From positions 1 to 64,000 of the forward strand of contig PBGP02000009.1 of the NCBI GenBank assembly GCA_002720095.2: DNA of 64,000 bases, given 5' to 3'. A program made the position numbers and the translations under genes. Every line of letters starts with the position of its first letter. Positions within the stretch are counted from its first letter, which is position 1. Under the pieces are notes generated by a model. The model had not been told where the DNA came from and searched no databases. It saw only the letters and a program-made list of their open reading frames with translations. Shown here piece by piece: positions 52,717-55,508 of the stretch. The stretch is from Methanobacteriota archaeon. Lineage in GTDB: Archaea > Thermoplasmatota > Poseidoniia > Poseidoniales > Poseidoniaceae.

Positions 52717-53325
52717 TTAGAAAGTAGACTCCCAATCATCAATATCATTGTCTTCAGCCCAGCTATCGTCATTAGTTATCCCTCTACCTTTCAGTACTTC
52801 TCTACTTAATAACCAGTACAATAGAGCTAGACTTCTTCGTCCTTTGTTATTTGCAGGTAGAGCAATATCTACATTTCTGAGGTTGTTGTTTGCATCACAT
52901 ATTGCAACAATTGGTATGCCAGAACCTACAGCTTCTCTCACTGCTTGCTGGTCTGCAGCTGGATCTGTAACAACTAATAACCCTGGCTCATAGAATGAGG
53001 GCAATTTTGGATTTGTGAAGGTTCCCGGTATAAACCTGCCAACTAAGGATTTTGCTCCAATTGATTCTGCAAATTTCCTTGCGGGTCTCTGTCCGTACTG
53101 ACGTGCGCTTGTAACTACAATTTGTTCAGGTTCATATTGATTTAAAAATTTTGTAATTATTCTTATTCGTTCATCGGTTTTATTTAAGTCAATCAGATAT
53201 AATCCATCATCTCTGACTTCCTGAATAAATTTCATCATATCGGCGCTTCTTTGTTGTGTTCCGATATTTACAGCATTTTCTTCATATGTTTCAAAATCAA
53301 CTAAAGGTGTCATAGTCTCATTCAT
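52717..53325 (-). CDS. rps2: 30S ribosomal protein S2 (uS2)
   Basis: The 202-residue small-subunit protein is of archaeal type: DDGLYLIDLNKTDERIRII, QYGQRPARKFAE, RFIPGTFTNPKLPSF.EPGLLVVTDP, IPIVAICDANNNLRNVDIALP and NNKGRRSLALLYWLLSREVL. The C-terminus is an acidic tail ending DIDDWESTF. GAGGA precedes the ATG at 7 bases, and a 12-base palindrome and a short upstream ORF lie in the leader. Here it stands alone, whereas in many archaea it follows enolase and RNA polymerase subunits. Confidence 0.97.
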   Translation of the reverse strand: MNETMTPLVDFETYEENAVNIGTQQRSADMMKFIQEVRDDGLYLIDLNKTDERIRIITKFLNQYEPEQIVVTSARQYGQRPARKFAESIGAKSLVGRFIPGTFTNPKLPSFYEPGLLVVTDPAADQQAVREAVGSGIPIVAICDANNNLRNVDIALPANNKGRRSLALLYWLLSREVLKGRGITNDDSWAEDNDIDDWESTF

Positions 53326-53419: not shown

Positions 53420-54901
53420 ATGTTGTATGGCTATGATAGCGTAGTAGCGGGTGTATGTATGTACGAAGCATCACAAGACGAAATTGGTATCTGGAAAGAT
53501 AGCAAAGGTGTTGCTATTTCAGTTTCGGCAAGTGATCTTGAAAGACATGCATATTGTCCATTATCTTGGAAATTATCAAAAGAGGGCTTTGATGGTAAAG
53601 GTGACGCAATTACTTCAGGAATCAAGAAGCATCAAAAAATTCATGAAAAAGTAGAAAATTTTCATAACAGCAGTATAGATTCGAGAAGAGAAATTGCTGT
53701 TTGGACTTGGACACTTTCTATAGTTGTAATATTTTTAATAGATTCAATTGCATTTATAGTTCTTGAGGATGATTATCTCGGAATTTCTGGCGATGGATTT
53801 GGTTCGGAAAAAATTGGAGATTTAGACTCTGGTTGGTATTATTTAGATATGTATGATACTAATTCAAATGGGTGGAATGGGACAGATTTGATAATTTTAG
53901 ACGGAAATTATAATCTTGTCTCAGGACCCTATGAGTTAATATCTGGTTCAGAAGAAAGAGTCACATTCAGATTAAGTTCTGATTGTGTAGATTGTATAGT
54001 AATAGTCAGAGGCGTCAGTGACGAATCTATTGAAATATCTTGGTCATTATCGACTACTGACATACTACCACCTAAAGAATTAGGTAAGTTCTTGGTAATG
54101 TTATCAGTGAGTGTGCTATTTTTTTCAATTTTAATGATTGCATTGCCATGGAGAAATCGATTGGGATGGAAAGAACCTGAATTAAAACCAAATGAGATAA
54201 TTTCTACATTTGAGCAAAAATTGTTCAAACCAGTTTGGCAAACTGTTGATTTTGTTGGCGGTTGGATTAGTGGCGGAAGAATTGAAGGTTTTGCCCTACT
54301 TTCTTCAATAGTAATTATGATTCATGGAGTGTCGTTATACGGTGCGGATAATCGTCAACAGGCAGCATTAATTTTGGTTTTTGTAGCATTTTTTTGGCTA
54401 ATAATATCGAGTTCTCAATTAAGAAAAGTTCTGTTATCTATAGCGGAAAGAGAGAAGTTAAGTGCAGAACTTGGAATAGATTATTCAACTAAGATTAATT
54501 ACAGTGATGATAGTAAGGAATCATCAATTCTATCTGATGAGAATATTGGATTAAGAGGTCGTCCAGATCAAATTGTTGTAATAGATGGTAACTTTATCCC
54601 AGTAGAACAAAAGACAGGTAAGATACCAACTAAACCGCACTTAAGCCATAAAATTCAGTTATTGGCATATATTCATCTCATTGAATCATCCACGGGTTCA
54701 ACACCTCCTTATGGAGTACTACGTTATGGAACAGATGTGGCTTTTCCAGTAGAATGGAATGAAAGTAGCAAAGAATTGTTATTCGATAATATTAGAGAAA
54801 TACAAAGATTAACTGTTCAAGGAGGGGCTAAAAGAAATCATAATCAAATTGGGAAATGTAGGAATTGTTCTAGAAAACATGCTTGTGGAGACGCTTTATA
54901 G
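53420..54901 (+). CDS. Membrane-embedded Cas4-like nuclease
   Basis: The 493-residue protein has the Cas4/RecB nuclease parts in order but split: N-terminal SASDLERHAYCPLSWKL (Cys46) and GIKKHQKIHEK (His71), then four membrane helices (about 93-115, 222-243, 289-308, 313-332) with an extracellular beta domain of about 105 residues (WYYLDMYDTNSNGWNG...), then the core GLRGRPD (Asp383), VEQKTGK (Glu396, Lys398), QLLAYIHLIE (Gln413, Tyr417) and the cysteines CRNCSRKHAC (480, 483, 489). All four iron-sulfur cysteines and the PD-(D/E)XK triad are present. Start could also be ATG 53459. No CRISPR or cas1/2 nearby, so not an adaptation gene. Function unknown. Confidence 0.82.
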   Translation: MLYGYDSVVAGVCMYEASQDEIGIWKDSKGVAISVSASDLERHAYCPLSWKLSKEGFDGKGDAITSGIKKHQKIHEKVENFHNSSIDSRREIAVWTWTLSIVVIFLIDSIAFIVLEDDYLGISGDGFGSEKIGDLDSGWYYLDMYDTNSNGWNGTDLIILDGNYNLVSGPYELISGSEERVTFRLSSDCVDCIVIVRGVSDESIEISWSLSTTDILPPKELGKFLVMLSVSVLFFSILMIALPWRNRLGWKEPELKPNEIISTFEQKLFKPVWQTVDFVGGWISGGRIEGFALLSSIVIMIHGVSLYGADNRQQAALILVFVAFFWLIISSSQLRKVLLSIAEREKLSAELGIDYSTKINYSDDSKESSILSDENIGLRGRPDQIVVIDGNFIPVEQKTGKIPTKPHLSHKIQLLAYIHLIESSTGSTPPYGVLRYGTDVAFPVEWNESSKELLFDNIREIQRLTVQGGAKRNHNQIGKCRNCSRKHACGDAL

Positions 54902-54905
54902 ATTA

Positions 54906-55508
54906 TTATTCTTCACTTTGGCAATCTTCTTCACTGAATTTTACACATTCAGACGTAACAGTAATTATTGCTGCAAAGTTGTCATTTGCTTCGACTACTT
55001 CAGCTAGATTAAATCCATATCCTCTAGCTTCAACTTCCAATGTCCAAGTACCGACAGGTAATGGAGGTCTGTGAACTTCTACAATTGGTTCAATTGACTC
55101 GCTTGCGAGTTTTTCATAAAATATTTCACCTTTTGAATTTAATATCTTAATATGCACATATCTAGCTTCTTGACTCAATGTAGAAATATTTAATCCCGTT
55201 AAATCCTCTATCAGATCTCGGGTTTCTTGAGCAATATCAAATGGATCAGGCATAGAAACACGAACATAGATAATTAATTCAGACACACTATCGGTAATTT
55301 CAAAGGTTGACGAATTATCATATGCTTCTGATGAAGGATTCTCAAATGTATAGGTAATATTTGTTTTCTGATCAATTTCAACAATTACTGGCTCTCCTCT
55401 CATGTATTCTAACGATTCTCTAATTGGAACTAATCCAAAACAGCCCATAGTTCCTGACAAAAATAATGAAACTAATATGAAAGTAGTCAATGAGTTGTTT
55501 CCTTTCAT
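54906..55508 (-). CDS. Hypothetical lipoprotein
   Basis: The 200-residue protein has a signal peptide with lipobox T-M-G-C (Cys23), so it should be lipid-anchored on the outer face. The rest is a beta-rich domain with VRVSMPDPFD, an ARYVHIKILNSKGE strand and a PLPVGTWTLEVEARGYG jelly-roll-like strand, and a C-terminal acidic segment with two cysteines. No family was recognised. It is convergent with the Cas4-like gene by 4 bases and may be related only by position. Confidence 0.75.
   Translation of the reverse strand: MKGNNSLTTFILVSLFLSGTMGCFGLVPIRESLEYMRGEPVIVEIDQKTNITYTFENPSSEAYDNSSTFEITDSVSELIIYVRVSMPDPFDIAQETRDLIEDLTGLNISTLSQEARYVHIKILNSKGEIFYEKLASESIEPIVEVHRPPLPVGTWTLEVEARGYGFNLAEVVEANDNFAAIITVTSECVKFSEEDCQSEE

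Follow-up and report, generated by a model that had tools for sequence, protein, structure and literature searches.

The window, by which we mean the whole 64,000-nucleotide stretch of DNA that was analysed, encodes a Cas4-type nuclease whose two half-domains lie on either side of a membrane module that itself carries an extracellular domain. A preliminary description had seen the protein as a Cas4-like nuclease interrupted in this manner, and the observation as a whole proved to be real. Comparison with relatives established the layout, its conservation, the duplication of the membrane hairpins, the restriction of the ectodomain to one genus and the absence of Cas1. On balance, we lean towards a membrane-anchored, non-CRISPR nuclease of the Cas4/Dna2 type, whose halves would close at the cytoplasmic face and which would act on DNA at the membrane.

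Gene and nuclease halves

An uninterrupted ORF extends from 53417/53420 to 54901 in the window. The ATG at 53420, previously taken as the start, is probably 13 codons too early, as the reading frames of congeners open at, or close to, the Met at position 53459, probably the true start. With this start, supported by ORF analysis and relatives' frames, the gene occupies 53459..54901 on the forward strand, and its coding part (53459-54898) yields a product of 480 aa, followed by the stop codon. Residues are numbered here on the 480-aa form, in which Cys46, His71, Asp383, Glu396 and Lys398 of the preliminary description become residues 33, 58, 370, 383 and 385, and its CxxC-x5-C motif corresponds to residues 467, 470 and 476.

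The N-terminal half of the Cas4 fold (residues 20-75; 53516..53683, forward strand) was recognized from invariant alignment columns and a profile match to Cas4. It bears the motifs SASDLERHAYCP, containing Cys33, and G...H, containing His58. The C-terminal half (residues 341-480; 54479..54898, forward strand), recognized from Pfam/NCBIfam and PDB profile matches and from Foldseek, contains RGRPD370, E383-Q-K385, SH..Q400..Y404 and the cysteines 467, 470 and 476 of the Fe-S site. All catalytic and cysteine residues of the window protein are at Cas4 positions. The C-half was retrieved with the Pfam profiles PDDEXK_1 (PF12705; 4e-8) and Cas_Cas4 (PF01930; 1.6e-7), both above cut-off, and with NCBIfam cas4 (TIGR00372) at 1.1e-13, below that model's own cut-off, which some members of the phylum exceed (e.g. 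L157). Its PDB profile matches were 4r5q, 8d3l, 4ic1 and 7mi4. Judging by its sequence, the N-half is too short and too diverged for stock family models, and Exonuclease V (PF09810) resembles it weakly, below cut-off. A profile built from the N-halves of 24 diverse relatives matched the N-terminus of type I-D CRISPR Cas4 (E 2.6e-6 against four sequences), with YaYCP and G..H lining up in the alignment. The Cas4 structure 4r5q aligns with the N-half and then the C-half in the same order, the N-half part being weak.

The D...E-x-K and Q..Y motifs are invariant in 28 of 28 Poseidoniales sequences and nearly invariant among 97. Likewise invariant is the ligand set of the predicted Fe-S cluster, made of one N-terminal (C33) and three C-terminal cysteines (C467, C470 and C476). 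Loss of catalytic residues in homologues was looked for; the catalytic and Fe-S residues, which the preliminary description had reported as kept, are almost invariant phylum-wide, with an active-site E to D or D to N change in the rare relatives L160 and L177. Both halves are under purifying selection (pN/pS 0.10 in the N-half and 0.14 in the C-half), in line with the earlier claim that selection maintains activity. Conservation and purifying selection support catalysis, and homology suggests degradation of DNA from its end.

A structural model of the window protein obtained with a 97-row alignment (mean pLDDT 85.3, pTM 0.74) was used instead of an earlier 28-sequence model, which had poor active-site confidence. 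In the model used, both nuclease halves are predicted at pLDDT 90-98 and only the loop 241-269 is disordered. The best solved structures in Foldseek were type I-C Cas4 (E 7e-5), Dna2, Cas4-Cas1 and MGME1, some of the alignments having a large rmsd. Whether the halves fail to assemble was judged from model confidence and Foldseek scores; the confidence of the nuclease parts and the Cas4/Dna2/MGME1 fold matches point to assembly, and contact between the N-half and the C-half in one fold is likely.

Membrane module and extracellular domain

In the window protein, 312 residues separate His58 from Asp370, and they hold four hydrophobic helices and a jelly-roll ectodomain of about 100 residues. The four hydrophobic segments between the halves bear out the earlier view of a Cas4-like nuclease interrupted by membrane helices. 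Helices and topology were predicted from hydropathy and the structural model. All on the forward strand, the transmembrane (TM) helices lie at approximately residues 84-102 (TM1; 53708..53764, with model helix 49-101), 211-229 (TM2; 54089..54145), 275-293 (TM3; 54281..54337) and 303-321 (TM4; 54365..54421). Between TM2 and TM3, the putative cytoplasmic inter-hairpin loop (residues 230-273; 54146..54280, forward strand) is poorly ordered in the model, with pLDDT below 50 at 241-269, and is the fastest-evolving part of the protein (pN/pS 0.24).

Across Thermoplasmatota relatives, the module is always inserted between the His and the Asp. The distance between these two residues is quantised in 32 diverse sequences, at about 115 aa in proteins with two helices, about 177 in those with four and about 310-340 in those with eight. 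In Poseidoniales, where there are four helices, it is about 215-224 aa, the 312 residues of the window's genus being due to the ectodomain. The basic unit is a helical hairpin of about 60 residues, present in one, two or four copies. Homology between the two hairpins of four-helix members was shown with HHalign (probability 97.3%, E 2e-11), the best of the reversed, rotated and hydropathy-preserving shuffled controls reaching 21%. From the quantised gaps and the hairpin homology, the membrane module therefore grows by whole hairpins. By hydropathy, the helix number is even (2, 4 or 8) in 30 of the 32 sequences; the odd counts, three in L192 and seven in L170, look like threshold or motif-parsing effects. 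An even number places both nuclease halves on one side of the membrane, which Cas4's Fe-S site and DNA substrate suggest to be the cytoplasm. L170 (genome G284) additionally carries a C-terminal extension that, judged by eye, resembles a TRAM nucleic-acid-binding domain.

The extracellular jelly-roll domain (residues 104-203; 53768..54067, forward strand) was delimited through genus comparison and Foldseek and bears a D-x-x-x-x-G-W-N-G loop. It had been described as a 105-residue extracellular domain; a domain of about this size is real, but it is confined to the window's genus. It is inserted exactly in the tiny TM1-TM2 loop of other genera, whose proteins have a few residues in its place. 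As relatives outside the genus keep only these few residues, sensing of something outside, proposed earlier, cannot be the general function. Foldseek retrieved jelly-roll modules, including the C-terminal domain of Tk-subtilisin (3afg) and the ColH collagen-binding domain, so that the previous PPC-like label is reasonable; from Pfam, the ectodomain obtained no significant match. The domain is similar to repeats in a 2493-aa surface protein from the same genome (G000:C8), and the other ectodomain-type copies are repeats in a surface protein of about 2500 aa of the same genomes, 28-43% identical. It evolves faster (pN/pS 0.21) than the nuclease (0.10-0.14). The ectodomain is an accessory and not the core of the system. 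In the 2493-aa protein itself (L219:4761-12239), several jelly-roll repeats of the D-x-x-GDGWNG type occur together with Lipoprotein_15 repeats, and a hydrophobic segment like that of archaeal pilins lies close to the C-terminus.

Distribution, genomic context and two-gene versions

A search with a Poseidoniales profile retrieved the gene in 149 of the 244 genomes of the order. According to counts compiled by hand from the search results, it is near-universal in the window's family, Poseidoniaceae (117/122 genomes, the five without it being 73-81% complete), and patchy in the sister family Thalassarchaeaceae, where the 32 genomes that carry it follow genus boundaries and several genera lack it. 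The species-representative collection yielded 191 loci, the best 80 of which are all Poseidoniales-type, and the gene is encoded on a complete MG-II chromosome (L086) and in the apparent single-cell records L070, L108 and L118. Four congeners share the layout, one of them as a fragment. Phylum-wide, relatives were found in many Thermoplasmatota families, including mcrA-bearing genomes of two families. Given this wide distribution, the gene is neither a chimera of a single assembly, a concern raised with the preliminary description, nor a local novelty.

Some genomes have more than one copy. Two full-length membrane Cas4 copies are present in each of G018 and G024 (genus g6), and genome G060 has, besides an intact copy on contig C7, a second copy decayed in several frames (C6:85816-86948). 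A Poseidoniales-type copy was also found in a record named Deltaproteobacteria AH-558-G13 (L127), which, given the type of the copy, is a probable case of mislabelling or contamination.

In Poseidoniales, the gene is flanked by a divergent rpsB, encoding ribosomal protein uS2 (52717..53325 in the window, reverse strand; NCBIfam and synteny), and by a convergent gene for a secreted/lipoprotein-like protein (54906..55508, reverse strand; cluster C1 in 87 loci), within a conserved block that includes dus and winged-helix regulators. Synteny is conserved in 87 loci, and the nuclease gene has no operon partner. Outside Poseidoniales, the neighbours are L15e, GlmS, Trm1 and similar genes. A defence-island context was rejected, since the neighbours clustered over 116 loci are housekeeping genes only; these neighbours and the missing operon partner do not sustain the earlier placement in phage defence. 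A virus origin was also rejected, as neither the archaeal version nor the bacterial versions tried had relatives in phage records or IMG/VR contigs.

Cas1 was absent from the 38 Poseidoniales genomes tested (0/38), and no CRISPR-like array was detected in the 46-62 kb part of the window nor any cas genes nearby, in agreement with the earlier statement that cas1/cas2 and CRISPR repeats are lacking here. Most of these 38 genomes have no clear Cas4-family match other than the membrane form. ComEC was likewise detected in none of the 38, so that the DNA-uptake reading of the preliminary description, in its competence-type form, loses support. Both a role in CRISPR adaptation and a coupling to competence were rejected on these counts; as Poseidoniales are without Cas1 and ComEC, CRISPR adaptation and canonical competence do not explain the gene. 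Searches for Rfam and tRNA matches gave none.

In the Thermoplasmatota family f16, 22 of the 23 loci examined (L183, L184, L185, L194 and L197-L215) contain two overlapping ORFs, the first encoding the Cys/His half followed by one TM helix, and the second one TM helix followed by the catalytic half. The ORFs overlap at a conserved GAGGTGAT-nnn-ATAG junction, a pattern kept in many genera. At 17 of the 23 loci the second ORF has ATA where its start codon is expected, at three it has ATG, and TTG, ATC and TTA occur once each. These codons hint at translation restart on AUA, or at a -1 frameshift. The ribosome-binding-like GAGGTGAT followed by ATAG, ATGA or TTGA would favour stop-restart over programmed -1 frameshifting.

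The same two-gene layout was found on plasmids of Bacillus subtilis (L243) and of the planctomycetes Singulisphaera and Paludisphaera (L224 and L233), the pairs consisting of N-half and TM, then TM and C-half. In a plasmid variant from Marinobacter, Microbulbifer, Vibrio, Aeromonas and Thioalkalivibrio (L223, L234-L238, L244 and L246), the N-half gene, often annotated as CFI-box-CTERM, ends without a clear TM. The two-chain genes are encoded near ssb, recT or conjugation genes, and mobilisable as well as conjugative plasmids carry them. Because neither chain alone holds the full Cas4 motif set, a working enzyme would require assembly of its two halves. The pairs thus support assembly of the halves in trans and, together with the confident model, assembly at the cytoplasmic face.

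On the Bacillus subtilis plasmid NRS6116_2 (L243:959-1923), a helicase gene, a small ORF, the N-half with its TM (1185-1430), the TM with the C-half (1435-1923) and a plasmid-borne hfq follow one another. On a Vibrio breoganii plasmid (L238:2766-5423), the two-chain nuclease is encoded directly behind MotA-like and OmpA-like genes, an arrangement reminiscent of a Zorya-type motor combined with another effector. This similarity to the Zorya ZorAB-nuclease system was seen on this one Vibrio plasmid, and at no other plasmid locus examined nor in archaea.

Relation to known nucleases and possible roles

The membrane form shares with solo-Cas4 and CRISPR Cas4 (PF01930, TIGR00372; Pcal_0546 4r5q and type I-C 8d3l) the Cys and His of the N-half, the D...E-x-K and Q..Y motifs and the three C-terminal cysteines. 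However, Cas4 has a short link between the His and the Asp, in place of which the membrane form has two, four or eight helices or is divided into two genes that encode TM helices. Its halves are 312 residues apart in the window and about 115-340 in relatives, whereas the Cas4 nuclease domain is contiguous; the protein is thus a member of the Cas4 family by sequence, yet a variant. Nor does it have the linkage to cas1/cas2 and arrays of CRISPR-associated Cas4. RecB-family nucleases of the Dna2/MGME1/AddAB type (PF12705) share the core fold, according to Foldseek. The Fe-S site of one plus three cysteines also occurs in Dna2 and AddB. Dna2 and AddAB are joined to helicases, unlike the window protein, and to our knowledge nucleases of this type have no membrane segments. 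Exonuclease V (PF09810) has in common the Fe-S PD-(D/E)XK design and the weak N-half similarity, but is soluble. ComEC is a works-like analogy only, in that a nuclease is coupled to membrane helices, and is unrelated in sequence.

As far as we know, Cas4 is regarded as soluble, and the solo form frequent in archaea has no known job. The membrane form is, like published solo-Cas4 (PMC5704561), mostly vertical and CRISPR-free, as judged here by synteny in 87 loci. A 2017 survey of the Cas4 family treats solo-Cas4 at length and does not mention TM segments in its main text (PMC5704561). We found no description of a membrane-inserted or split Cas4 in the open-access literature; the layout, for which the preliminary description knew of no described system, is thus apparently new. 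The phylum-wide threading, the duplication of whole hairpin units and the gene splits in a hairpin loop suggest that membrane location is essential for this branch of solo-Cas4. They also make it an oddity of protein evolution, one catalytic fold being held together across helices foreign to it. The two-chain version of the Bacillus subtilis plasmid would be a tractable system, whereas uncultured marine archaea do not allow experiments.

The topology, the assembled active enzyme, its polarity on DNA and its physiological role are what we infer beyond the comparison. Two half-domains would be linked via one or more TM hairpins (two in the window gene) placed between the His and Asp motifs of a PD-(D/E)XK fold. 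With an even helix count, both halves would face the cytoplasm and could close into a single Fe-S-stabilised nuclease at the inner face of the membrane. By homology, this nuclease may degrade single-stranded DNA from its end, and as a resident membrane enzyme it could trim or destroy DNA at the inner face, either incoming DNA or intermediates of repair at the membrane. In the window's genus, a jelly-roll domain exposed at the surface has been added to the loop of the first hairpin, where it presumably serves in local attachment or recognition. Of the interpretation offered earlier, the membrane-split Cas4-type nuclease stands; outside sensing as a general function, competence-type uptake and the phage-defence placement are not supported.

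Membrane position and plasmid carriage of the two-chain form favour a role at membrane DNA, and the vertical, housekeeping-like inheritance favours one in repair. We place a role on DNA that lies at the membrane or enters through it somewhat ahead of a repair role, although not securely. The broader proposal of a class of membrane-bisected nucleases, comprising single chains and two-gene pairs, that process or destroy DNA as it enters the cell is a tentative one. It also seems to us rather unlikely that the protein is a housekeeping repair or replication nuclease, processing ends in the manner of Dna2, MGME1 or AddAB, with an anchor that merely localises it and no involvement of incoming DNA. 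Such a role would suit the near-universal, syntenic gene of Poseidoniaceae, its rpsB and dus flanks and the L15e, GlmS and Trm1 neighbours elsewhere, the presence of Dna2 and MGME1 among the nearest folds and a published account in which solo-Cas4 is inherited mostly vertically and may function in repair (PMC5704561). However, several Thalassarchaeaceae genera do without the gene, and carriage of the two-chain version on mobilisable or conjugative plasmids is unexpected for a core repair enzyme.

The remaining explanations are less credible than membrane-anchored action on DNA. A folded ectodomain tied to a cytoplasmic nuclease via TM1/TM2, of a jelly-roll type akin to collagen- and sugar-binding modules, might be thought a receptor that activates the nuclease on sensing a ligand, in signalling or phage-entry defence, as was suggested earlier; yet the domain is found in one genus, relatives keep only a few loop residues, and the domain is a copy of a surface-protein repeat and evolves at about double the rate of the nuclease, which makes this improbable. 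A part in a DNA-uptake machine, in which the protein would degrade one strand of the imported DNA, would agree with the membrane location, the Cas4-type single-strand nuclease fold and the plasmid homologues near ssb, recT or conjugation genes, but we consider it decidedly improbable, ComEC being absent from the 38 Poseidoniales genomes tested and no transporter gene being adjacent. That the best-matching family names are cas4 lends little credit to a membrane-bound Cas4 of CRISPR adaptation, a very remote prospect with Cas1 in 0/38 genomes, no cas genes or arrays nearby and a housekeeping neighbourhood. Finally, the genome is a draft and the relative in G004 has an internal stop, but an assembly artefact or dead gene is a negligible prospect, given that the gene is under purifying selection and is present in hundreds of independent assemblies, on a complete chromosome and in apparent single-cell genomes.
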